In this document: positions 4,955 through 61,515 of the stretch, in pieces
Numbering within the stretch: the first letter of the stretch is position 1
Layout: every line of letters starts with the position of its first letter
NCBI GenBank assembly: GCA_012932865.1
Contig: SAXG01000055.1
Coordinates: 1-64,000, forward strand
DNA from: Amylostereum areolatum
Taxonomy: Eukaryota > Basidiomycota > Agaricomycetes > Russulales > Stereaceae
Direction of reading: 5' to 3'
DNA length: 64,000 nt
Notes under the pieces: model-generated
Told to the model about the DNA's origin: nothing
The model's input: the letters and a program-made list of their open reading frames with translations, nothing else
Databases searched by the model: none
Made by a program: the position numbers and the translations under genes

Positions 4955-5981
4955 ACCTTGCTTTGCATTAGAAACCGGTGAAACACCTATTCTTTCTGCC
5001 TATTAGCTTGCCAGCAGCAAGGGGGGTGAGAGCTCCTGAGCTGGCCGAGATATAGTAGTGGAGCTGGGTGAAATCTCAGCAAGACCAAAAGGCCATATAC
5101 AACATACAATCATCTCGCCGGACCTGCCTTTGCATTAGAAACAGCTGAAACGATACAGTCTTTCTGCGTGGCAGGTGTCGGTGAGAGCTCCCCAGCTCGC
5201 TGAGGTCTAGTATCTGAACTGGGCAAAATCTCGGTGAGGCCAGAAGGTCATAAAAAACATAATACCACCTCGCCAGACCTAGCTTTGCATTAGAAACAGC
5301 TAGTACAATTTATTCATTCTGCCCATTAGGTCACCAGTGGCAAGGGTCGGTGAGAACTCTTCAGCTAGCCGAGAGCCAGCAGTTCTACTGGGAGAAATCA
5401 CGGTGGGACCAGTAGGTCATAAACAGCATACTATACCTCACCGGACTTGCCTTTGCATTAGAAACAGCTGAAACAATGTACTCTTTCTGCCCTTGGCTCA
5501 CCGGTGGCAGGTGTCGGTGAGAGCTCCCCAGTTTGCCGAGGTTGAGTAGCTGAGCTGGGGTAAATCTCGGCGAGACCAGAAGGACAAATACACATAACGA
5601 CACCTTGCCGGACGTACCTTAGCCAATAGACAGAAAGAGTGAATTGTTTCAGCTGTTTTGATGCAAACCGGTGGCAAGGGTCTGTGAGAGCTCCCCAGCT
5701 TGATGAGATCCAGTGGTTCAACTAGGCAAAATCTCTGCGAGACTAGAAGGTCATAAACAGCATACTATCCCTCACCGGATCTACCTTTGCATTAGAAACA
5801 GCTGAACAATACACTGTTTTGCCCATTGGCTCACCGGTGGCAAGGGCGGTGAGAGCTCCCCTCTTGCCGAGGTCTATTATCTGAACTGCGAATCTCGGTG
5901 GAGACCAGAAGGTCATGTACATCATAATGACACTTCGCCGGACTTGCCTTTGTATTAGAAACAGCTGAAACAATTCATTCT
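4955..5981 (-). repeat. Right arm of inverted ~165-bp tandem repeats (foldback-like)
   Basis: Units recur at about 4960, 5120, 5280, 5450, 5780 and 5945, each marked by CCTTTGCATTAGAAACAGCT, the reverse complement of the left-arm marker. One unit near 5646 appears in the forward sense. The outermost right unit, reversed, matches the second left unit over more than 70 bases with few differences. The arm is cut at 5982 by the copia LTR. Confidence 0.8.
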
Positions 5982-6453
5982 TGTGAACAGACTTATCCAA
6001 GTCAGTGAGACGCTCATATCGAAGGGATACTTCGAGTTATGTATTATACCTTATCCAAGTCAGTGAGACGCTATAGTAAGGTATATAAGCCAAAGAGAAA
6101 TAGGTAGAGGGTATAAAGGATTGCTCACCTCAGTCGAAGGGATACTTCGAGTGAGGAGGCAGGACAAAATACGAGAGCCTTATATACCCAAACCGCTGTG
6201 CCATAAGAGCCAATCATAAAAGCCGTAAGAAAGTGGTGTCATAGTGTAGCATAATTAATCAGCGCCAAGAGTGCGCTCAGTCATCCACCACAGCTTTCAT
6301 GTGAAAGCGTACAGTAAGAATCACATGCTCCGCACAGCCTCGCACAGCCGATTCCATATTGTTCCGGTTCTTCCCAGAACCTTCCGTTCCTTTCCGTCAC
6401 ATATTACATAATGTAGTTGAAGCTAGAGATCGTCCGCATTACTATCTTCAACA
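5982..6453 (-). repeat. 3' LTR of the copia element
   Basis: It begins TGTGAACAG, having lost one T relative to the partner's TGTTGAACAG, and ends CTTCAACA. It is 472 bp, matches 11664-12135 with scattered differences, and contains internal repeats of GAAGGGATACTTCGAGT. Confidence 0.92.
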
Positions 6454-6479
6454 CTCCCACTTAATGGGATGATCGAAAG

Positions 6480-9400
6480 CTAGCGACTCTCCTTCGCTTC
6501 CACTAAACCCATCCTCCCACTCAAACGGATGTGTGTGTCATAAGGGACAGGCTTGGTCAGAGCATCTGCCACTATATCCGCTGAAGGGGCATGAACCAAG
6601 GAAACCAATCCATCATTGACGCATTCCCGAATGTAATGCCAACAAATATCAATGTGCTTTAGACTTTTACCAGTGACAGGGTTTTGTGCACTAATAAGTG
6701 CGCCCCGGTTGTTGCCATACAAGGTAAAAGGCACTTGACTCGGGTAGCCGATCTCTTGATAGAGGTTCCTGTACCAGGCTATCTGCTTTGCCGCTTCTGC
6801 CATTGCGACGTACTCCGCTTCATGGGTAGAATGGGATATCAACTTCTGCTTCTTTGACATCCAGGCGATAGCACCACCGGAGTAGATGAAGACGTATGCA
6901 GATGTCGAGTGACGATTATCCCTATTCTCTGCCCAATCCGCATCAGAGAAACCAAATAGCTTGTCCTTCACTTTGCCATTGTAGTAAATGCGATAGTCCT
7001 GTGTACCAACAATGTACCGCAGAACGTACTTCGCCGCTTTCAGATGGGCCAAAGTGGGGTTTGAGCTGAACTGTGCCAGCCGTGTGACCGCATACGCAAT
7101 GTCCAGACGAGAACCAATGGCGACGTACATGAGACTGCCAATGAGAGACTGGTAGTACGTCCTAGTGTGCGGGTCTGCGTCTTCGGTTGCCTTTTCAAGG
7201 ACAATACCGGATGGCAGGGGAGTGCGAGTGGGGTTCGCTTCAGACATCTCGAAACGGGCAAGCATTTCTGCTATGTTCCGCTTTTGATCTATCTCGATTG
7301 TCTTCTGCTTTCTGTCGCGAATGATTCAAATCCCAAGGAAAGAAGACAATTCCCCTAGGTCCGTCATCTCAAACCGACTAGCGATGGCACTTTTGATGCG
7401 CTTGATTTCGCTAAGCGAGTTCCCCATTAACGCCATGTCGTCGACATACAGTATCAAAATGATGACTGTGTTCCCCTCCTGTCGACGATAGACGTATAAT
7501 CCCGTGTCCAAATAAGTACGGACAAAGCCCAACTCCTTTAGGAGTGCGTCAATTACTGCGTTCCACTGCCTAGCAGCTTGTTTAAGACCATAGATGGCCT
7601 TCAGTAGTAAGACGACTTTCTCCGGATGTGCAGGATCTACGAAACCTTCCGGTTGCTCTATGTAGATTTCTTCCTCCAGTTGCCCATGCAGGAACGCCGA
7701 CTTGACGTCCATGCCATGTATTTCCCAATCTTCTTGTGTGGCCAATGCAAGGCAGAAATGAATTGTTTCGAACCGGGCAACGGGGCTGAAGGTTTCCGTG
7801 TAATCCTTGCCGTACTCCTGTTTGAAGCCTCTAGCGACCATGCGAGCACGAAATAGCGTGTCTGATTTATGCTTGAAGACCCATTTGCAAGTGATAACGT
7901 TCGCATCCTTGGGTCTGTCCACCAATCTCCAAGTTCCCATTTTGTCTAGCGCATTTTTCTCATATTGACACGCTTCCCTCCACTGCGCCGCTTCGCACGA
8001 TGCCATTGCTTCCCCAAAAGACTGTGGGTCAGGCGATGCTGCTGTATCCAGCAAAGCCGAAAGCGAAAGCATTCCTCCCATTACGTGACGACGACCTCCT
8101 CGTCTGCCTATAGTCGCATCGACCTGGCTAGACCTCCCTGCACCATGCGCATTGTCTGGATCATTGTAGCGTGGGTTCAAACCTGCACGATTCCGTCGCG
8201 GCCTTTGTTCAGGTGTGACAGGCTCATGCGAAGGTGGGGAGTAGTCTGCATGTGGGGGGTTTGCCAGAGCGTTGTGGTACCGACTAGTTTGAGGAGTTTG
8301 TGGGAGCGGTGTAACTCCCACTGCAGGAGTACGCGGTGGAGTTTGTGGTGGTGAAGGGGATGGAGAAAGGGTAGTGAGGTCAGAGATGACAGATTCCGTC
8401 TCCTTGACTTCTTCCTCTTCATGCTCGGACGGTGGGGTTTCAACTTCTTCCTCACCGCTGTCTTTCTTTTCTTTGTCTGCTGCAGGACCAGGATCGGCTT
8501 GAGTAGGTGCCGATGGTTGAGCGTGACGATGCTTCTCAGGAATTTCGACATCTGGAACTAAATCTTCCAGACGCACAACAGGTGGCGGCTGAACCGGAGC
8601 TGGCAAACTTGGTTTCTCCGGGAAAGAGGTTTCGTCAAAGTCTACCTCGCCGTAGGCAGCAATGACCATGGTTCTCTTTTCCTTTACCCACAACCGATAC
8701 CCACTGGCACCGGGTTCATAGCCAATGAACGTCGCAGGGAATGTCTTTCCTTGTAGCTTGTGACGTTTGTCCTTGACTATGAATGCCTTAGCAGTGCAAC
8801 CAAATACCCTAAGGTACGTGACATTGGGAATATCCTTTCCCTTTGTCCAGCGCTCAAGCGGAGTGTGCCACTGTTGGATCCGAGTCGGTGTACGATTGTA
8901 GATGTGGACAGCAGCTTCGACTGCATACTGCCAGAATCCTAAGCTAAGGCCAGCGTAGTGAAGCATAGCCATCGCCTTTTCAAGGATTGTACGATTGAAT
9001 CGTTCCGCTCGTCCATTGAGTTGTGGCGTGTACGGCACAGACATGTGATGTTCTATTCCCAGTTCTTTGAACCGATCCTCGAGTTCCCGACTAGTGAACT
9101 CCCCTCCATGATCGGAGTGGAAGATTCCTATCTTTTCACCCGTCTGATTTTTGGCCCACACTCTGAAGTGCTCGAACGCTTTCACGAACTCGCTTTTAGC
9201 CTTCAGATAGTAGATAGCACCGAAAGACGAACTATCGTCGAGGAACGTAGCCATATAGGTATTTCCTTGGATCGATTTTATGCGCATAGGTCCTGCTAGG
9301 TCAGAATGAATCTTTCCCAACACCCGTGTAGCGTGTTTCTCTGAAACCGGGAATGTTTGACGTGTTGACTTTCCCATCTGACAACCATGGCAGTGATCAG

Positions 9401-10913
9401 AGGGACGAGATGCTGGGTCAACGTGCACTCCTTTGACAACGTCTGGTGTTAACTTTGTGAGTGTACCATGAGAGATGTGTCCAAAATGTTGGTGCATAAT
9501 GTCCGCCGTAGTCATTTTGACCTTTTCCGCTTTCGCCGAGTTGACCATTACTGTGGGCGCAGGGTGTAACGTGATCCAGTATACATTCTCCTGCTTTGTG
9601 ACGTGCCCCACAGTAGTGTCTCCCTTTGAAATGGTGCGTCTGCCAGACCCACGGAGTTCGATGGTGAAACCCCGTTCCTCAAGCATGCCGACCGAAATGA
9701 ACCGGTGCATAGCGAGAGGGGCATGGAGGACCTTGTTCAGGGTAACCTCCATTTGTTTCCCTTCAACAACAGAGACCGCGCGCACCGTGCCAACGCCTAT
9801 ATAGGTCATCTGGCCGCCATTTCCGAGTGTTATTGGACGCGAGTCCTTTAACGGTGTGTACGACTCAAAATCGCCTTGGTGCGGGGTTACATGTTGTGAA
9901 CAGCCAGAATACAACATCCAACGGGTGTGCCCAGGGGCGATATACCAGGAAACCTTCATGTCATTGGCATCCGAAGACAAAGACGCCTGCAAGGTATTTA
10001 CAGTAGGTCCCCCGCCGCCGCCCCCTCCACCTTTCTTCTTCGCCTCTTCCTCATCCTTCTTGCACTTGCGACATTCAGCCTTTTTGTGGCCAGGCTTGTC
10101 GCAGTAGTAACATTTGAGGTCCTTGTTGTTTTTCTTCTGCGCAGATGACGACAATGAGAATCCTCCTCCCTTTCCTTTTCCTCCTGCCTTGGAGAACACG
10201 AGGGTAGCGACTTTACCCTTGCGACGAGACTCCTCCTCGATGATGTGAATGAAGATGTCTTCAGAATTCACCTTGGTGATGTCAGGGAAGGAGTTGAGGA
10301 TGACAGGAACTAACTCCTGGAAAGAGTCAGGGAGAGCCTTGAGGACGACGAAGGCGTGGAACATGTTGGATAGTCCGAGACCATTATCGCCTAGGATATT
10401 GTACTCCTCCGTCATCTTGTTGATTTGAGGACAAAGGGGCTCCGACTCGGAGAGGCGATGTTGTTGGTAGAGGTCAAAGCTGGTGAATGCGGTCATGATG
10501 CCAGGTCTAGAGTAGATCCCCTCCAGGACCTCCCAGGTGCCATAGGACAATGTGCAGTACTCTATCTTACTGCGCACAGCAGTGACGCAAGCAAGCTTGA
10601 GAAGACCAAAGGCTGCATCATCATTGTCTTCCCAGTCTCCTCTGACTTCATTGTAGTCTTTGCCAGAGAGAGTGGAGAGTTCTAACTTGGGCGCCAATGT
10701 AATTTGGATGGTAAGTTCACCCTTGGCTTCCACATCCTTCTTCTTCTTCTCGAAGCCAGTGATCTCTGTGCTCGTCGAGGGACGAGGCTTCTGGCCATTG
10801 ACGACACGCCACAGTTTCCTGCTCTGCAGCAGGTCCTGCATGTTGCGCGACCAGGATTTCCAGTTCGTCGCATCAAGTTTGACGAAGCTGGAAGGGAGCG
10901 AGTTTGAAGACAT
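6480..10913 (-). pseudogene. Copia Gag-Pol polyprotein, one in-frame TGA, damaged protease and RNase H sites
   Basis: From the Met at 10913 (MSSNSLPSSF) the frame runs about 1,195 codons to a TGA at 7328-7326. It then continues in the same frame to the stop at 6480, where the element's frame ends. Domains in order are: Gag with a CCHC knuckle (CYYCDKPGHKKAEC); protease; integrase with an HHCC finger, DLAGP and HSDHGGEF; a Pro/Glu-rich linker; reverse transcriptase with YVDD; and RNase H. The protease site reads WMLYSGCS where the family has DSG, so the catalytic Asp is Tyr. The RNase H region reads YGNNRGA where DN is usual. The TGA falls in FLGI*IIRDR, where Arg is common, consistent with CGA to TGA. 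The frame is open upstream to 11198, but that part is leader sequence. Reverse transcriptase and integrase look intact; autonomous movement is unlikely. Confidence 0.9.
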
Positions 10914-11663
10914 GATAAGTCTTGGTGGCGATAATCTGGGTTGAGGAGCGGTCAGACCCAGATCCCCAAAGTCGCAAAGAGGCAGCAACCCTCCCCTGTG
11001 TCTGTACTCTAAACCAGAAACCCAAAGGTTCCTGCTCTTCCTCGACGTCCATGCGCGCCTATAGTACTTGTATGAACAGTTATAGTATGTGATACGCAGT
11101 TGTAACAGGTGCTCCAGGGTGGATTGACTACCTCCCTCTGGATTGGGACACCTAAACCGGTCCGCACTTAAGGGCACCAGCCAACCGTTCACAAGCACCT
11201 ATAGCATCACGCTAGGCTCCCCTAGCGCTTGCCTAATTACCTAAGTATAGTAATTATGTACTGCCTTAGCGACGACACGAGCGTCGCCAGAGGCCCTTCC
11301 TGCCAGCTTCCTAAAGTGAGGTCACTTGGTTTCAGGGTGCTACGACACTACACGTCCTAAGACGTCTTCAGGGCGGCTGGGAACAAAACGCCCGCACGCA
11401 ACCTGGGTAAGTAAAAGACCATGCCCCTAATGGGCCAAACTGTATCGTAGCGCGCAGAGGGACGGAGGACTAGAGGACTTGCAATGGCTTCTGCCTGCTT
11501 CAGGGCTCCCTCGCCGCGCTCGTGTTACCCCTTCAGGGTGAGGACACAATGCAAGGCCCGGGGCCAAGCAAATTGGGGAGCGAGTGGGACTAATGAAAGT
11601 TACTCGCCTTTGAAGAACTTTGTACAACTTGAGGGCTAGATAGATAGGCCAGGGCCCATAACC
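10914..11663 (-). other. Untranslated leader of the copia element
   Basis: About 750 bp lie between the 5' LTR and the Gag start. No further coding domain is recognised here. It holds the candidate primer-binding site at its LTR end. Confidence 0.6.
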
Positions 11664-12135
11664 TGTTGAACAGACTTATGCAAGTCAGTGAGATGCTCAG
11701 TCGAAGGGATACTTCGAGTGATGTATTATACCTTATGCAAGTCAGTGAGACACTACAGTAAGGTATGTAAGCAAGAGAGAAATAAGTAGAAGGTATAAAG
11801 GTTTGCTCACCTCAGTCGAAGGGATACTTTGAGTGAGGAGGCAGGACGAAATACAAGAGCCTTATATAACCAAACCGCTGTGCCATAAGAGCCAATCATA
11901 AAAGCCATAAGAAAGTGGTGCCATAGTGTAGCATAATTAATCAGCGCCAAGAGTGCGCTCAGTCATCCACCACAGCTTTCATGTGAAAGCGTACAGTAAG
12001 AATCACATGCTCCGCACAGCCTCGCACAGCCGATTCCATATTGTTCCGGTTCTTCCCAGAACCTTCCGTTCCTTTCCGTCACATATTACATAATGTAGTT
12101 GAAGCTAGAGATCGTCCGCATTACTATCTTCAATA
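11664..12135 (-). repeat. 5' LTR of the copia element
   Basis: It starts TGTTGAACAG and ends CTTCAATA, where the partner has CTTCAACA; it is 472 bp. On the minus strand a TATATAAG box is visible at 11869-11862, in the expected position for the LTR promoter. Confidence 0.92.
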
Positions 12136-12876
12136 CAGACACTAAAACTGCAACCCACTCTTGCAGCGCCGAGAACTTCCGTATAGACATCCAAGGAATA
12201 CCAAAATCCCCCTGGAACACTTCATCGGGTGTCGTCTTCACCGAATACCTAATACAAAAGCACCAGTGGGAGGATACCATGCAAATACGTCAAGCGCTCC
12301 AAGAGGCTTTCGCTACAAGGGTCAAATCTCTGATCAAGAAATACCACAACAAGACAGACAAGGCACATCACCGACGTGAAGCGCGAAAAGATGCAGTAAT
12401 CCATTCTCTCCTATGCCTTCGAGTATCAGCCCTCTCATCTATGTTTCTTCCAGCGTTTTCACTGTCATCGTCAGGCAGTCCAAGGGTTTGAGGCGCTGCA
12501 CAAGGATCAATCCGCCCTTGATGCGCTTGGTCCAGCTGGCATGTCCGCTGACAAGTCCGAACTGGACGGGCGTTACGTTATGACAAGGCCAGAATGGCGA
12601 TCCGAAGAACTACGCCACTGGCTCAGCATCCTTGACGTCGTATACGATTTGTGCCGACGAGATTACAACATCAAGAAGGACCGTCGCGGTCAGCCTCCCC
12701 ACTGCCGAGAATTCTCAGACAGGATTGACCGCAAGTCTCCTGCTGTCCCTGGACTCCCCAAAAACTTCTATGACAAACAATGGCTGGCCTCCAGATCTCC
12801 TGAATGGGTTAAAGACGTCCTGCAACCGAAGGCTCCTGTACAGGTTGCTGCCTCCAGCATCGAAGTGGCTCAGTAA
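12136..12876 (+). pseudogene. 5'-truncated hypothetical protein gene, Agaricomycete-type family
   Basis: Coding sequence begins directly at the copia LTR edge. Exon 12136-12395 encodes a Lys/Arg-rich helical region (for example KSLIKKYHNKTDKAHHRREA). A 58-bp intron, 12396-12453, has GTAATC and TTCCAG ends and preserves the frame. The second exon, 12454-12876, contains RPEWRSEELRHWL and KSPAVPGLPKNFYD and ends in TAA. I recall similar proteins as expanded, uncharacterised families in mushroom-forming fungi, often near transposons. No function can be given. The start and promoter are missing, presumably displaced by the retrotransposon, so it is unlikely to be expressed normally. Confidence 0.6.
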
Positions 12877-37196: not shown

Positions 37197-40100
37197 AACG
37201 CCCCCCAGTCGCGTCGTCTGGTGGAGGCAAAGGACCTTTGGTATCATCGTTGAATCGTTTCGCTGTATTATCATCCATGCATACCTGTGAGCAATCGTAT
37301 CCCCTGTGTTTGTATCTGTCTACTGTCACCAAGAACAGGCAGACACCATCGATCACGCTCAAGGTCAAGCTGATCGGACGAATTACCAAAAGAGAAATCG
37401 ACGCAGACACGCTGCTTGATAGCGGCGCAGAAGGGATTATCCTGAACTGAAGCTTCGTTGAACGCAAGAAGCTTACCACAAGAAGACTAGAAAACCCGTT
37501 CCCCGTGCGTAATGTGGACGGTACCGAGAACATCATGGGCTGGGTATGCGACACAACGACCCAGCGGATCCGGGTATACTCGCAAGATTCAAAGGCATAC
37601 CATGAGGAAGAAGCTGAGTTCTTCATCACCGACATCGGCGATCATGACATGATCCTTGGAACAGACTGGCTCGACGAGCACAATCCCACCATAGACTGGC
37701 AATGGGACTGTGTTGACATGCTCCGCTGCCCTCCCTCATGAACTCTGTCCAAACCTCCTGTGACAAACCTCGCAACCAAGCCACGGAAACCATCATTGGT
37801 CCAATCACAGCGTAAGGTTGAAGCAGGTAAAACCCCAAGGACATCTCTTGTTCTGGACGATCCCTTCCCAGAGCCGACGTATGTGTCCTGGACCCCAGTC
37901 CCCACTTATGTCATTCCTGCACGCAGAGTCAAAGGTGTTTGCGTTCACATGGTCCATCGCTCCCCTCTACCTGCATGACTCTTCACTGAAGATGACGACG
38001 AGCGGCCCATGGTATTCTGAGACTGGGAGATCAATGGACTACACCACACTGGAATCCTCCCTGAAACCGATGGTCCTAATCCAGATGCAGTACTTATCCG
38101 TGCGGGCTTTACAAAAGTGCAGGAGCTTGCAGAGCATTCAAAAGAGAACGCACGCCCGCAAACCTTCGAAGACCTAGTCCCCCCTCCGTACCGTGACTTC
38201 GCGTCGGTATTTGACAAGAAAACCTCCGACCGACTTCCTGACCGACAACCATGGGACCATGCTATCAACATGAAAGACGGCTTTGAACCCGCACCGTGCA
38301 AAATCTACCCCCTCTCACCTTCCGAGCAGATCGAACTCGACACCTTCCTTGACAACTACCTGAAGAAGGGCTATATCCGCCCATCGAAGTCACCTCAGGC
38401 GAGTCCGTTCTTCTTTGTGAAGAAAAAGGATGGAAAGCTGCGTCCCGTACAGGACTATCGAGAATTAAACAAGGGCACTGTCAAGAATGAATACCCCTTG
38501 CCACTGATCTCTGAAATTGTCGACCATCTCAAAGGTGCAAAGATCTTCTCAAAGATGGATGTTCGCTGGGGCTACAACAATGTCCGCATCAAGGAAGGCG
38601 ACGAGTGGAAGGCTGCGTTCAAGATGAATCGCGGTCTCTTTGAACCTACAGTGATGTTTTTCGGACTTATGAACTCCCCTGCGATGTTTCAGGCAATGAT
38701 GAATGAACTGTTCAAGGATTTCATCGACTCGGGCAAGATCATTATCTACATAGACGACATCTTGGTGTTCACTTGCACCATGGACGAACACCGTGCCATA
38801 GTGCGGCAGGTTCTGCAACGTTTGCAAGACAACGACCTCTTCCTCAAACCGGAGAAATGTGTCTTTGAGCAAGACTCCATTGAATACCTCGGACTCATCA
38901 TCTCGCACGACAAGATCGCTATGGACCCCGTCAAGGTGGCAGGTATTCAGGACTGGCCGACACCACGAACGGTCAAAGATGTGCAATCCTTCCTCGGCTT
39001 TGGCAACTTCTACCGACGTTTCATCAAGGACTTCTCCAAGGTTGCACGACCCCTATTTGACCTGACAAAGAAGGACTGCACATGGGACTGGTCGACGGAC
39101 TGCCAAACTGCGTTTGACGCACTGAAAGCTGTGTTTACTTCCTCCCCCGTCTTGGTCATGCCTAACCCAAAGAAGCCTTACCTCGTTGAAGTCGACGCCT
39201 CGGACTTTGCTACTGGAGGTATACTCTCGCAGAAAGGCGACGACGGTCACTGGCATCCAGTGGCGTATCTGTCCAAGGCCCTATCGGAACCGGAACGCAA
39301 CTACGACATCTACGACAAGGAGCTACTTGCGATCATCCGTGCACTTGAAGCCTGGCACCACTACCTCGAAGGCGCCCCCGACACCATCGAAATCTGAACA
39401 GATCACAAGAACCTGGAGCACTTCAAGACGGCACAGAAGCTGAGCCGCCGACAGGCACATTGGGCTCTATTCCTCACTTGATTTGACTTCTCGCTCGTTC
39501 ACAAACCAGGAATATCCCATCGCCCGGATCCAATGTCTCGACGACCCGATCACAAGGATGGTGTTGAAAACAACAACAAGGAGCGCGTCTTGCTTGACCC
39601 CAAGTACTTCCAGGTACGCGCAACAAGGCCAGGAGCAGTAACCTCCCTCGGCAATGTCGAACTCCGATGACGTATCCGCGACTGCAAAACCAAGGACATC
39701 GAGGTCGTTCAAGCCCTGGATGCCATCTTACGAAACGGACCACGTACGCTCGTCAAGAACCTCCAGGAATGGAACTACGAAGAAGGCCTAGTCTTGTTCA
39801 GGGGGAAGGTATATGTCCCCGCAGATGACGAGTTGCGACGCGACATTGTCAAAATGTACCATGAATCGCCCCTGGCTGGACACCCTGGTCATTTTAAGAC
39901 CTACAAACTTGTGAGTCGCGAATACTGGTGGCCCGGCATATCTGTCTTTGTCCACGACTTTGTAGCAGGATGCGCAACCTGTCAGTCGATGAAGACACAG
40001 AGCCGCCGACCCCACATCGACATGATCCTGAACGAGGTACCTGATCGACCATTTGGTGTCATCTCTACCGACTTCATTGTCGAACTCCCTGACTGTGAAG

Positions 40101-41284
40101 GCTATAATGCCGTCAATGTTGTAGTCGATTGCCTCACCAAGATGGTGGTTACCACCCCATGCACGACAAAGATTACCAGCGATGGCATGACCGACATCCT
40201 CTTCGACAAGGTATATTGACACTATGGCTTAGCAGACAAGATCATCTCGGATCGTGGACCCCAATTTGCTGGACAGGTGATGCGTACACTCAATGAGAAG
40301 CTTGGGATCAAGTCCGCTCTCAGCACGGCGTATCACCCCCAAATAGATGGCCAGACTGAACGTGAAAACCAGAACCTCGAACAGTTCCTGCGAGTATTTT
40401 GCAACTACCGACAAGATGACTGGGTGAAGTGGTTGCCCTTCTTCGAGTTTTCTCACAACTCTCGCACCCATGCAGCTACTGGAAAAGCTCCCTTTGAAGT
40501 CCTCTACGGTTTCCTCCCGAAGATGTACCCATCTGTAAACCCGTCCTCAAAGGTCCCTGCAGTTGAAGAACGCCTCCGTCAACTTGAAGAAGTCCGACAG
40601 GAGATCAAGGCCAGCCTCGCCCTCGCATCAGACTTGATGAAGCACTACAATGGCGACATGGTCAGCAAATCAACGCAGTTTGCTGTCAGAGACAAAGTAT
40701 GGCTAGAAGGTAAGAATCTGAAGACGACGAGACCGAAAGCTAAGCTCGCCGCCAAACGATTTGGACCCTTCGAAATCATTGACGTCATCAGCCCAGTCAA
40801 CTACCGCTTGAAGCTGCCGAAGACGTGGCAAATCCATCCAGTCTTCCATGCCTCGTTGCTCACCACGTACAAGGAGACAATGGCACACGGTCCAAACTAT
40901 GAACAACCGCCACCCGACCTCGTTGATGATGAAGAAGAATATGATGTTGAAGACATCATTGACTCGAAGCCAACCCGCAACAAGAAAGGCATACAATACC
41001 TCGTCAAGTGGACCGGCTCTCCCGACTCCGAAAATACCTGGCTCCCGCGTTCATCGCTCTCAAAGGTTACCAACATGATTGATGCCTTCCACAAGCACCA
41101 TCCAAATGCGCCCCGCCCTGTGCATTCCCTCGGCATCTCCTTTGACGATTTTCTCGCATCCACCCTTGCAGATGACATCATGCTCCAGGCGAAAGCGCGT
41201 CTTAAAGGGGGGGTAATGTCACGGATTGCTCCATTTCTCTCTTCATTTGCAGACCTTGTACACACGATGTATCACGGCACATGA
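37193..41284 (+). pseudogene. Ty3 Pol with chromodomain; eight in-frame TGA codons, no other lesions seen
   Basis: One frame runs about 1,360 codons in the order below. Protease has LLDSGAEG. Reverse transcriptase has the YIDD box (IIIYIDDILVF). RNase H has VEVDASD and TDHKNL. Integrase has an HHCC finger (HPGHFKTYKLVSREYWW; CATCQ) and a DDE triad (STDFIVELPD; IISDRGPQF; ERENQNLEQF). A chromodomain follows near 40925-41090 (IQYLVKWTG; ENTWLP). Stops lie at 37448, 37739, 37976, 38018, 39395, about 39479, about 39668 and 40217, and all eight are TGA. Some occupy positions where relatives have Arg (LT*FDF, LR*RIRD, VY*HYG). All catalytic residues checked are present. The chromodomain is thought to steer integration to heterochromatin. 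The element cannot make intact Pol under the standard code. Confidence 0.9.
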
Positions 41285-41639
41285 CTTTCCTTCGCATCAC
41301 ATGCTCCAACGACATCATTGCCCGGACTTCCGAATGGGGTTCCGCATTCTTATCTATGACATCATTGCTCCGTACTTCCATCCTCCGCCCCATGACTCCT
41401 TTCTTATTGTTCCCCCTGCTCGCACCACTATCGCATCGCATCGCATCATCGTTCCCACTTGTATATAAGGACAGTATCTCTTTTCCCTTTTCCTTAGACT
41501 GTCTATCTTGTCCTACAGTACTGCACCTCGCATTGCACTATCCTAGACTCGGCACTCTCGAATCCATTTGTTCTCTCTTGCTCCTCCCATCATCGCGACT
41601 TAGGTGGTTCTATCGGTCTTATAAACTGTGTTTCTGACA
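41217..41639 (+). repeat. 3' LTR of the Ty3 element
   Basis: It starts TGTCACGG and ends TTTCTGACA, with TATATAAG at 41462-41469. It carries most of the CG to TG/CA changes relative to the 5' copy. Confidence 0.93.
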
Positions 41640-42347
41640 TAATGGGGAATTGGAGAGGATATGTGTGAAAAGCGACGATTTGGACGAGCAGAGGTTCGAG
41701 GGGGTGCCGAGGGCGAAGGGATAGGGCAATGGGGGCGGTTACGACGGCGATGGGGAGGGTGGATGGTCTAGATGGAGGCCTGAAGAGCGCGTACCAATAG
41801 CACAACACGATGGGGAGCTACACTCGTCCGATCCCAAGGTGAAAATTTCCTCCAGCAGCACTCCTGCAACAACGAGCTCCTGAGTGTGAACAGCTTGAGC
41901 GACGGCTACCGCATTTGGTGAGGGGATAGGTAGGGTGGTAGGGAGGGCTGTCGCGAAGCGAGGGAGCAAACGGTCAAAGGGGGGCTGAGAACACCTTTGA
42001 TGTTGGTGGGAGGAGGAGGAGGAAGTGTTGCAGGCTGTAGAGGCACAACGACAAAAGTGACGGACTTGGGGCTTGGCACAAAGGTGGATAGGGTGTAGTA
42101 GGTGCGGAATATGCAAGGGCAAGGCGAACGGATGAAGGGGTGTTGCGTGCGCGCTTGATATTGCGAAATGCGCGCCCTGGTGGATGGGGATGGTGTTGGG
42201 AAGCAACGGATGGGTTGTTCAACTTGAAACTCGAGGGCTGGGGCCTCTAGGGATGGTAGGGGAGGTGTGTAGAAGGACGAGGCGAGGGGGGTGCTGTGAG
42301 GCGAGATAAAAGTGATAGGTGTTGGCTAGAGCGCAGGGCCCATAACC
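41640..42347 (-). mobile_element. Copia-like element 2, truncated internal region
   Basis: The region lies just inside the LTR at 42348-42798, and the minus strand starts GGTTATGGGCCCT (42347-42335). This is the same primer-site sequence as the first copia element. The remaining 700 bp reads only as Ser/Pro/His-rich frames (42206-41739 minus). It is cut by the Ty3 3' LTR at 41639 without a duplication. Confidence 0.6.
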
Positions 42348-42798
42348 TGTTGAAGTCGCAGTTGAAGGGGCTAGCCAACTAGCTAGAGACGCTCAGAACT
42401 GACACAAACAGTGGATTGCTGCAGCACAGAATGAGCGACTGAGAAACAAGACAGAAACAAGCAAGGGGCATACCTGCAGCACAGAATGAGCAACTGAGGA
42501 GGAGCAGACGCGTGTGGCTGCAGGTAGAGGCCACGGAGCGTGGGAGGAAACTCGGAATAAGCCGAGATTCACCCTAAAGCGGTAACTAACTCAAAACTGA
42601 AGCTAGGGAAGCGAGCTCAGGCTGAACTACAGTAAGTACAGTACAAATGGGTACAGTAGGTGAAGTGGAGAGGGCATGTGAGGGTATAGACGCGGAATAA
42701 GGCGATAATAGGGTGAATGGAGCAGAATAAAAGCGAATAGAAAGGAGATAGGACGGAAGAAAGGTGTAGAAATCAGACATAAAGGAATATCTTCAACA
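42348..42798 (-). repeat. LTR of copia-like element 2 (5' LTR, minus)
   Basis: The 451-bp block starts TGTTGAAG and ends CTTCAACA (perfect 8-bp inverted ends). It adjoins a primer site identical to the one next to the copia LTR at 11664. The sequence otherwise differs, so it is a different family. Confidence 0.75.
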
Positions 42799-49972: not shown

Positions 49973-50058
49973 TATGGTGTGAGTCAAAATACTGCCATTG
50001 TCGTCCATCATGCCATCTGTGTGAGAACATTGCGTACTCTGTGTGGGTAGGTCTTTAC

Positions 50059-50267
50059 TGTTGAGAACACAGAAGGACCTTCATTCATAAAGTGAAACAC
50101 AAAGTGGACTGACCGGGGATTGAACCCAGGACCTCCCATATTCTAGAAGGGTGCTCTAACCAACTGAGCTACCTATCCGATAGTGGGAACAGGTTGGTAG
50201 TTGATATAGAGGATATCACTGAGCTCTGATTGTGTGCAACAGGCCAGGGCTTAGCCTTATTTCAACA
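50059..50267 (-). mobile_element. tRNA-bearing LTR-like short element, copy T1
   Basis: The 209-bp unit starts TGTTGA and ends TTTCAACA (TG..CA with inverted ends). A perfect 5-bp duplication TTTAC flanks it (50054-50058 and 50268-50272). A second 209-bp copy at 60885-61093 is about 95% identical and has its own perfect duplication. Size, TG..CA ends and 5-bp duplications fit a solo LTR of a TRIM-like retroelement. The tRNA-like gene occupies a third of it. It lies in the Plavaka gene. Confidence 0.88.
50105..50178 (-). tRNA. tRNA-like gene inside element T1 (apparent anticodon AGA, likely not functional)
   Basis: The minus strand folds as a 74-nt cloverleaf. The acceptor GGATAGG/TCAGTCC has one A-A mismatch. 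The D arm is GCTC..GAGC, with an A box TAGCTCAGTTGG. The anticodon stem CCCTT/ATGGG has a T-T mismatch and the loop is CTAGAAT. The T arm is CTGGG/CCCGG with loop TTCAATC, and the B box is GGTTCAATCCC. A class I body with anticodon AGA does not fit tRNA-Ser, which has a long variable arm, so the anticodon arm has probably drifted. No TTTT terminator follows directly. Confidence 0.8.
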
Positions 50268-50370
50268 TTTACTTACACATTCACATTGAGTGTCTGAAAC
50301 CTGACTAGCTTTGCCACTTGCAGCTGTCTGACAACTTCAAAGAATTTGCAACCGATACAGCAGGGTGGTC

Positions 50371-56139: not shown

Positions 56140-57340
56140 TTTGATATGGCCGCACGTACCATATCTTGGATCTACGCCTGGGACGAGCCCTGAACTACCA
56201 CACATCCGTTGCTCTCAGTCCGGCCGGAAGAGTCAACCGGTGCGATGCCTTTTCTCTCGATACGGCCAAACAAAAGGTGATAGAGCCTGCTCCCATTCCC
56301 TTCAATGCAGCCACACGATGGTCTGATCACACGCGGTCGGTGCCTTTGATGCGGGCACACGAGGGCCCGCAGACCTACATCCATTATCTTCAATGCGGGC
56401 ACACGACCGGCTGCATCACAGACTCTCGTTTCACTCGATGCAGCCGCACGGAAGATCTCTGAGTGCACTGCCGTTGCTCTGGATACGGCTGCCGCACGTC
56501 TGTTTGTTGCGAGGCGGCCACACGAACGATTTTGCGCCCGACTGCCTTTCCACTTGATGCGGCCGCACAACGAGGGACCTTGTAACCCCTACCATTCCAC
56601 TTGATGCGGCAGCATGACCAGTTACTGGGCTGCCTCCCGCTCCACACGATGCGGCCGCAGATGGATCTATGAGTCAGCTCCCGTTTCACTTGATACAGCC
56701 GCAGGAGGGACCAGCTGTTGCGTCTCCATTGATCTCGATGTAGCCGCAGACTGAATTTTCTGAGCCGCCTCCATTCCACTTGGTGCGGCCGCAGAGTGAA
56801 TTTCTGGAGTTGCTCCCATTGCACTTGATGCGGCCGCATGATGCACCTTTTGAGCCAGTTCTGTTTCACTCGATGCGGCCGCACGTGTATCTGGGGGTCA
56901 GCTCCCGTTCCACTTGATGCGGCCGCAGGAGGGACCCGTTGTCGTGTCTCCGTTGCTCCCATTGCACTTGATGCGGCCGCATGATGCACCTTTTGAGCCA
57001 GTTCTGTTTCACTCGATGCGGCCGCACGTGTATCTGGGGGTCAGCTCCCGTTCCACTTGATGCGGCCGCAGGAGGGACCCGTTGCCGTGTCTCCGTTGCT
57101 CTCGATGCGGCCGCACGAGGAACTAGCTGCTGCATCTCTGTTGCTCTCAAATCGGCCGCATGGGAATGTGTAGGTCTGCCTCCGTTCCACTCGATGCGGC
57201 CGTACTGTGCATCTGCAGATCCTGTTCTGTTTTGCTCAATGCGGCTGCACACAGCACCATCTGCCGTATGTCTGTTGCTCTCAATGCGGCCGGATAGCGA
57301 CTTGCCTGGAACCCCTTCCTCCCTCTCGATCCGGCTGCAC
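56140..57340 (+). repeat. Minisatellite with ~44-bp units centred on GCGGCCGC
   Basis: About 27 diverged units recur every 42-48 bp, each with a variant of GATGCGGCCGCA. Around ten units keep the exact palindrome GCGGCCGC. Outer units on the left are most degenerate. A higher-order copy of 143 bp (three units) is almost perfectly duplicated, starting at about 56821 and 56964. Since 44 is not a multiple of three, the long open frames here are side effects. Confidence 0.88.
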
Positions 57341-60100: not shown

Positions 60101-61515
60101 ATGCAATCCAGCGACGCAAGTAGTGAACTGCCCAGCCAGCATGACACGCCTGACAGGCTGTCCGTAGGAGGAGCAATGTCGCCAACCAACCTATCTACGC
60201 CCGCAGCGAGCACCGAGAAGGGAGACCGCAGTGCAGAGGACCGCGTATTGGAAGGAAAAGAGAGTGTAGCAGAAGAAACCATGGTGCGTAGTTGTGATGA
60301 CCATCTGGCTCAGCAGATTGTCTAACATTTTGCAGCAGGTTTCCCCGGGATTGAAGTCTGCCATGCTCGAAGGCAGCAGCACCGCTCCTCACTTTCTCCT
60401 TCAGATTAAGGAGGCTCAGGGAGCCACTGCAGTTCCAGCAGCATCCCAAGTCCCCATGAACCTTGTCAACGATGCCCAGCACCCGACTGAAGTCCGTGAC
60501 GTCGCCGCATCAGTGGTGGGAGTGACACCCCCACCCTCCCCCATGAACGAGCGAGCGGTGTCTCCTTTACTACACAGCAACATCCTGTCCCTGATATCTA
60601 GCACCTCGCAGACGACCACCCCCCTTCCGCAGAGTGAGACGGCAATTGGGCTTGCATCGGACGAGCACAACGACATGGCGGACCACAAAATGCAGCGCTC
60701 CTATGACCCGCGCCCCGGCTGGTCAATTTCCGCAGACATAGCCTGGCTTGTGCGCAGACTAGGCTGGCCTTGCCGTGAATGCCTCGCGGAGCTGATCGCG
60801 CTCCGCCTCCGCAAAGCCCTCGACACGTTGCCCCCTATGACCAAGGTCAGAGAAAATAACACACATATGCACAGCGCAAATAACTGTTGAAAACACAGAG
60901 GGACCTTTAGTCATAAAGTGAAACGCAAAGTGGACTGGCCGGGGATTGAACCCAGGACCTCCCATATTCTAAAAGGGTGCTCTAACCAACTGAGCTACCT
61001 GTCCGATAGTGGGAACAGGTTGGCAGTTGATATAGAGGATAGCACTGAGCTCTGATTGTGTGCAACAGGCCAGGGCTTAGCCTTATTTCAACAATAACAT
61101 CGTTGTAAGTGTCTTTGAGCCCTGGCTTTTATTGATTTACCTGACCTCTCTCGATGCCTGCAGAATCAATACCAGATATGCGTGCAAGAAGCCATCGGAA
61201 GTTCCCTATCGGTGGACGAGGTAGAGGTCTCCCCCAAGATGTTGGCTGCATCTAGGCTGGGGAATTTGCGACGATCATGTGGAAAATGTGGAGCTCGGGA
61301 TCCCCCAATGATCCCCCAATCATGGCCATGGTCCCCAAGGTCGATGCCGTTGGTGTTCCCCGCGGTTCACCTCATGTCCGCGGTGTCAGCATCCCAACCT
61401 CACGGCAGGACAAGGAGACCGGTGCTGCCGTCTCCGCGCTCGCCCCTCTCGGGGTGTACACCAACGCGGCGCTCTTGCAAAATACAGAATTGTACCGTGC
61501 AGGATGGTCAGCGTG
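60101..61515 (+). CDS. Hypothetical protein, at least three exons, tRNA-bearing element in an intron
   Basis: Exon 60101-60283 opens MQSSDASSELPSQHDTPDRL. Exon 60336-60845 (QVSPGLKSAMLEGSSTAPHF to LRKALDTLPPMTK) follows a 52-bp intron in phase. Exon 3 starts at 61164 (NQYQICVQEAIGSSLSVDEV) after an intron of 318 bp that contains element T2. The N-terminal 230 residues are Ser/Thr/Pro-rich with a helical stretch (AWLVRRLGWPCRECLAEL). After about 61270 the best frame changes (VDAVGVPRGSPHVRGVSI), suggesting an indel or a further intron, so the end is approximate. No known domain is seen. Confidence 0.45.
60885..61093 (-). mobile_element. tRNA-bearing LTR-like short element, copy T2
   Basis: It is 209 bp, TGTTGAAAAC..TTTCAACA, with a perfect 5-bp duplication ATAAC (60880-60884 and 61094-61098). 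About ten differences separate it from T1. Removing it leaves a 104-bp intron. Confidence 0.9.
60931..61004 (-). tRNA. tRNA-like gene inside element T2
   Basis: This is the same 74-nt fold as in T1 with a better acceptor stem, GGACAGG/CCAGTCC, and one A-A mismatch. The A box TAGCTCAGTTGG and B box GGTTCAATCCC are intact, so internal Pol III promoter elements are present. The anticodon loop is TTAGAAT, apparent anticodon AGA, with the same T-T mismatch in the stem. A TTTT lies near the element end (60892-60889 region on the minus strand). It is transcribed against the host gene's intron. Confidence 0.8.

Follow-up and report, generated by a model that had tools for sequence, protein, structure and literature searches.

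The two 209-bp repeats found in the window (the whole 64,000-nucleotide stretch analysed here, C134:1-64000 of the 57.13 Mb assembly in 182 contigs) are most probably solo LTRs derived from a Helenus-type TRIM of 503 bp, i.e. a short retroelement with a tRNA-like sequence inside its LTR. We put the probability of this reading at about 0.9, taken with the steps of RNA polymerase III transcription, help from another element and LTR recombination that are proposed below. What is added here to the known picture of Helenus is its distribution beside one Copia family.

Solo LTRs in the window

LTR 1 occupies positions 50059..50267 and LTR 2 positions 60885..61093. Both are 209 bp long, share 95.2% identity and lie on the minus strand, which is the sense strand of the element because the primer site and the G-rich tract of full copies lie in that orientation. 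LTR termini (TGTTGAGA or TGTTGAAA .. TTTCAACA) form inverted ends of 8 bp, of the TG..CA type typical of LTRs. An earlier note, made from the sequence of the window, had reported such ends with perfect 5-bp target duplications at two copies, and both observations hold: TTTAC flanks LTR 1 at 50054..50058 and 50268..50272, and ATAAC flanks LTR 2 at 60880..60884 and 61094..61098. Each of the two shows 7 differences from the commonest LTR, and both are older solo LTRs, unlike the full copies, which are mostly young.

The 74-nt tRNA-like cloverleaf that the same note had described was recovered in both copies, on the minus strand, by two programs in agreement (ARAGORN and Rfam RF00005). It spans 50105..50178 in LTR 1, with an anticodon loop AGA and without a long variable arm, and 60931..61004 in LTR 2. 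Boxes A and B, as read in the sequence, are likewise intact in both copies. In LTR 1, they correspond on the minus strand to the box A-like TAGCTCAGTTGG at 50160..50171 and to the box B-like GGTTCAATCCC at 50116..50126.

Several other repeats were observed in the window. A Copia element lies on the minus strand at 5984-12136, with LTRs of approximately 470 bp that are 95.5% identical, a stop in its frame, a primer site matching half of a Met tRNA and a TTCAACA end. Pieces of a Gypsy element at 38021-41284 encode reverse transcriptase (RT), RNase H, a Tf2-1-like SH3 domain and a chromodomain. Diverged tandem arrays are found at 5025-5974 (units of approx. 155-167 bp) and 56743-57160 (approx. 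45 bp, unit with GCGGCCGC).

The tRNA-like part of the LTR

RF00005 scores of 50.5 bits (LTR 1) and 55.5 bits (LTR 2) lie well above the gathering score of 29, and they span 50.5-56.1 bits over the copies scored. Since the fold energy is little better than that of shuffled sequences (z -0.7 to -1.25), it is the covariance model and the two boxes, and not energy, that speak for a tRNA. ARAGORN calls a Ser-AGA type, with some stem pairs mismatched. As tRNA-Ser requires a long variable arm, and the Ser-type call comes here without one, the predicted tRNA is unlikely to decode codons. Variable columns amount to 4 of 74 in the tRNA part versus 12 of 135 outside it, in a set of nine distinct 209-bp sequences, too small and too young to bear on whether the tRNA part is the more conserved. 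One older copy (84%, 192 bp) displays, when inspected by eye, a paired change in the T stem and also broken pairs.

A second family of tRNA pairs, approximately 226 bp apart, was considered and rejected: the one place read (L135 on C80) looks mitochondrial, C80:7900-8900 having 22% GC and a run of four tRNA genes (Ala, Phe, Thr, Gln). Similar tRNA pairs were seen on C77, C85, C91 and C178, and tRNA series of the C80 type on the large contigs C85, C150 and C151 may be nuclear mitochondrial DNA or the result of misassembly.

Architecture of the full element

Full elements consist of an LTR of 209 bp, an internal part of 85 bp and a second LTR of 209 bp, for a total of 503 bp; this internal length recurs in 11 of 12 stretches inspected. 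The tRNA-like part is in sense with the element, i.e. on the minus strand of the window. Read on this tRNA-coding strand, the internal part opens with TGGTAGCAGCACC and closes with ACGGGGGTG. The former is complementary to 13 nt (14 nt in L003) at the 3' end of a Met-CAT tRNA, including CCA, which is added to the 3' end of tRNAs. Four Met-CAT genes (L052-L055) have the same sequence, with the 3' end GAGGTGCTGCTA, and L051 is a variant; judging by their sequence, L052-L055 probably encode the initiator tRNA. An earlier initiator-tRNA pattern had matched five places, with tRNA genes at none of them. By eye, the tRNA-like part within the LTR has a 3' end (CCAGTCCA) that does not fit the primer site.

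The earlier note had suggested looking for direct pairs of the repeat with a primer-binding site and a polypurine tract between them. Pairs were indeed found (many of the BLAST matches are direct LTR pairs 294 bp apart), as was the primer site, while the polypurine tract was recovered only as a short G-rich run: ACGGGGGTG, just before the 3' LTR, is a short run of G interrupted by C and T, and resembles ACGGGGGA of the island Copia described below.

The Met tRNA genes L052 (C27) and L054 (C117) share identical flanks, so that the assembly may hold two haplotypes.

Copy number, target duplications and age

A pattern of 32 bases from one LTR end, allowing at most three mismatches, retrieved 167 places in the genome (101 forward, 66 reverse), versus 0 and 0 for the reversed control. 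The 100 LTR ends among the matches listed are all exact and lie on contigs C1 to C108. Used as a BLAST query, the 209-bp repeat gave at least 68 matches (40 of 118 candidates scored). Junctions between LTR and internal part, searched with at most two mismatches, were kept at 54 of 56 places (reversed control: 3), once the rearranged copy at C96:474489 and a place with two mismatches on C133 had been set aside. Assuming two LTR ends per junction, approximately 59 of the 167 LTR ends are solo or broken.

Perfect 5-bp duplications flank 17 of 22 full elements (9/11 and 8/11 in two sets) and 8 of 20 single copies. As a control, the next five bases match in none of 42 full and single copies (0/31 and 0/11). 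Among the copies devoid of a duplication, some are recombined or form the end of a duplicated segment, one has a shortened LTR, and others are half-elements whose mate lies past the locus edge.

All 18 LTR pairs of equal length that were compared are identical (8 and 10 in two sets), and the four other full elements among the 22 include one identical over 207 bases and one with a single gap. The LTR pair of a full element on C100 (L049) is just 95.7% identical, and one LTR of another (L138) is truncated. Most full copies are thus young, the mostly identical LTR pairs indicating very recent activity.

Rearranged copies were also observed on C96. At 474132-474787, a palindromic Helenus is made of two units of LTR plus internal part in opposite orientations, separated by 67 nt of a second LTR; GATGA flanks the whole on either side, which would fit the insertion of a single inverted dimer. 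At 533840 and 535274 (L008), two inverted LTRs have exchanged their flanking 5-mers (CAAAC and TGTCA), a signature of LTR-LTR recombination that inverted approximately 1.4 kb.

A member of Helenus

The earlier note had likened the repeat to the LTR of a Cassandra-type TRIM, with a tRNA in the role of the 5S RNA. Direct pairs and primer site support this proposal, and TRIMs bearing a tRNA-derived sequence in their LTR had already been described in 2024 as Helenus, or TRIMp3 (Kojima 2024, PMC10886601). The likeness to Cassandra is that of a small RNA gene with an internal polymerase III promoter within a TRIM LTR; Cassandra is found in plants and carries 5S RNA (PMC10886601), and the present LTR carries a tRNA in a fungus-type genome. 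Accordingly, only RF00005 reaches its gathering score in the window, where no 5S rRNA-derived sequence was detected.

According to its description, Helenus is known from Agaricomycetes, its fungal families make 5-bp duplications, and its boxes (A, TRGCY..YGG; B, with a GGTTC core) are conserved across species; some fungal families are primed by the 3' end of initiator-Met tRNA, and most prime at the anticodon loop (PMC10886601). The element reported here shares with these families a TRIM size below 1 kb (503 bp, for a class limit of approx. 1.3 kb), direct LTRs that enclose a short internal part, LTRs that carry boxes A and B in a tRNA-like sequence, a host-tRNA primer site right after the 5' LTR (Met 3' end, as in some families), 5-bp target duplications and solo LTRs. 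Its predicted Ser-AGA type is reported for some families, and in Helenus too the LTR's own tRNA-like part is not complementary to the primer site (PMC10886601). No difference in kind from the available text of that description was found among the features compared, the purine tract being short here (PMC10886601). By these features, the element, which probably comes from an agaricomycete, is a member of Helenus and not a new kind, and the family may already be in Repbase. In the TRIMp3/Helenus literature searched, only Kojima 2024 and a meeting report concern these elements, as judged by title.

A tRNA-like part in so short a repeat is reminiscent of SINEs, and inverted ends of 8 bp of MITEs. 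The earlier note had named unpaired copies, A- or T-rich tails and variable duplications as signs of a SINE, or else of a tRNA-capturing MITE. The terminal repeats would then be incidental. The genome displays the opposite: direct pairs whose internal part has a fixed length of 85 bp, complementarity of the primer site to a host tRNA, duplications of a fixed 5-bp length, and no A- or T-rich tail. A tRNA-derived SINE is ruled out by these pairs, the TG..CA ends, the fixed duplications and the missing tail, and a MITE by the LTR-type inverted ends, direct pairs and primer site, so that the chance of either is practically nil.

A Copia family as the likely helper

Kojima regards Copia as the likely helper of Helenus (PMC10886601). 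In the present genome, one Copia family, which we call island Copia, is likely to fill this role and would then mobilise the element. It has a 1436-codon frame, 451-bp LTRs and 45 RVT_2 matches scoring 203-209 bits, and is represented in the window by a fragment on the minus strand at 41633..42798 (LTR and start of the internal part, 92-94% identical). The named relatives of its protein (best 120 of 163) come from Sparassis, Mycena, Taiwanofungus, Trametes and Phanerochaete, with 42-58% identity; these genera are Agaricomycetes, mostly Polyporales. Among 39 predicted end pairs, 20 had both ends where expected, and a perfect 5-bp duplication was found in 12 of these 20.

The association of the two families is mainly one of place. 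Indeed, 93 of the 100 LTR ends among the matches listed lie within 20 kb of island Copia (RT match or primer site), a zone that makes up 2.4% of the genome; with RT matches alone as the Copia marker, the count is 88 of 100. Likewise, 47 of the 54 junctions are within 20 kb of island Copia (7 have no Copia match there), and 44 of 58 island Copia primer sites are within 20 kb of a listed Helenus. Two Copia insertions were found inside Helenus LTRs (L048; L068, a place also in L013), and many others are located within Copia or unmatched DNA.

Other families show no such gathering of their young members near Helenus. The 19 matches of the other, higher-scoring Copia group (at least 210 bits) and the best 150 of 974 RVT_1 candidates are all more than 20 kb away from any listed Helenus (4 of 19 and 5, respectively, within 50 kb), and the same is true of 25 other Copia matches picked by hand (0 within 20 kb, 4 within 50 kb). 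The RVT_2 matches below 200 bits form a mixed, unclassified group, of which 32 of 66 are within 20 kb of a listed Helenus; many of them, at fixed periods on C41, may be pieces of island Copia.

In sequence, the G-rich tracts of the two families are alike, which favours island Copia as the helper. The island Copia primer site is complementary to 17 nt in the 5' half of the Met tRNA: the two families use the same tRNA, but Helenus uses its 3' end, and the primer site is not shared. In addition, the TGTTGAA..TTCAACA ends and the half-tRNA type of primer site common to both families also occur in the unrelated Copia of the window, so that these features do not single out the helper.

The helper could instead be another element, lost or missed, with Helenus and island Copia surviving only in the same gene-poor regions. 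That the Copia is primed by the other half of the tRNA speaks for such a scenario, as does the fact that CA|TGGTAGCAGCA occurs nowhere else but in a rearranged Helenus. In the search for an autonomous family with the Helenus primer site, the exact pattern ACATGGTAGCAGCACNNNNNNNNB matched no place and VNNNNNNCATGGTAGCAGCA a single one, C96:474485, which is the rearranged Helenus. Other elements do enter such regions, since the older Gypsy of the window (38.0-41.3 kb), which is outside the listed RVT_1 control, lies 9 kb from LTR 1. However, identical LTR pairs point to very recent activity, and neither the top-scoring group of other Copia (0/19) nor the best 150 of 974 RVT_1 matches come within 20 kb. 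We thus consider a different helper rather unlikely, and retain island Copia as the probable one.

Transcription and life cycle

We infer from the sequence of the LTR that the element is probably transcribed by RNA polymerase III. Boxes A and B would recruit the polymerase, and transcription would begin in the 5' LTR, close to where the tRNA starts; the polymerase would read past the T4 run of the 5' LTR and stop at that of the 3' LTR, producing an RNA of approximately 409 nt with repeated ends of approximately 115 nt, as reverse transcription needs. Island Copia proteins would package this RNA, the Met tRNA would prime its reverse transcription, and the Copia integrase would insert the new copy into Copia's own target regions. 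LTR-LTR recombination would finally leave solo LTRs, such as the two of the window.

In the full element L017, T4 occurs on the sense strand solely at LTR positions 201-204, once per LTR; this spacing in L017 is consistent with polymerase III read-through. Of the window copies, LTR 1 lacks a T4 run and LTR 2 carries a second one inside the tRNA, which counts against the scheme.

Transcription of this Helenus-type TRIM by RNA polymerase II, as in ordinary TRIMs, with the tRNA-like part as a relic or a processing aid, would fit the TATA-like sequence at LTR position 60, approximately 30 bp ahead of the tRNA start at position 90, as well as the mismatched stems and the Ser-type anticodon without a long arm. 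Promotion by the Helenus tRNA is unproven in its describer's own words (PMC10886601). A mere relic sits poorly, however, with boxes A and B that are intact in both window copies and reported as conserved across Helenus species (PMC10886601), and with covariance scores that stay high in all copies scored. Polymerase II therefore appears an unlikely driver, and polymerase III the better candidate. With a recently active Helenus and its likely helper in one genome, polymerase III use, helper and primer choice become testable in a single species.

Islands and the centromere question

When listed Helenus and Copia places are linked at 100 kb, they form 25 islands on 24 contigs, C76 alone carrying two. 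Twenty of the 25 are shorter than 60 kb; four have only Copia listed and three only Helenus, element numbers per island being lower bounds. No report of Helenus sharing one island per contig with one Copia family was found in the literature searched.

Copia RT matches recur at fixed periods of 4004 bp (C148:185243-197992), 3728 bp (C41:8100-20016) and approximately 4278 bp (C85:71284-80125), a pattern suggestive of Copia pieces arranged in tandem, or of artefacts of the assembly. Groups of Helenus plus Copia repeat every 11327 bp on C1 (approx. 1.63-1.65 Mb), 8682 bp on C56 (approx. 504-516 kb) and approximately 7350 bp on C34 (approx. 136-151 kb); these are local segment duplications inside islands.

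Islands of this kind may be centromeres, by analogy with Ganoderma leucocontextum, in which the Copia element GlCEN427, with LTRs of approximately 427 bp, is found only in predicted centromeres (PMC10817607). By its description, GlCEN427 is a likely analogue of island Copia, which it resembles in LTR length (451 bp here) and in its confinement to one region per contig or chromosome; unlike the Helenus family, it is autonomous and without a tRNA (PMC10817607). LTR elements linked with tRNA genes are also clustered in the centromeres of Schizosaccharomyces japonicus, where most Tj1 insertions fall in the 12 bp upstream of tRNA genes (PMC4600332). Self-seeding, in which the Helenus tRNA would draw new insertions in the manner of Tj1, is not supported: of 53 distances to the nearest neighbour, 18 are no longer than 1.7 kb, versus 23.9 under uniform placement in the islands (contigs with listed copies, mates merged, repeat units removed by hand). 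As insertions are no closer than under uniform placement, targeting looks regional and not aimed at single tRNAs.

A bolder proposal, which we hold as tentative and rather doubtful, is that a TRIM with a tRNA promoter is confined to centromeres through an integrase borrowed from a centromere-targeting Copia, despite priming by opposite halves of the initiator tRNA, polymerase III promoters being thereby spread over nearly every centromere. The available text of the Helenus description makes no mention of centromeres (PMC10886601).

Transposons of such a kind inflate tRNA gene counts in such genomes. If the proposal were true, the spread of polymerase III promoters could help set centromere transcription or chromatin borders. 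Should the islands be centromeres, retroelements of the polymerase III type would be tied to the make-up of fungal centromeres.
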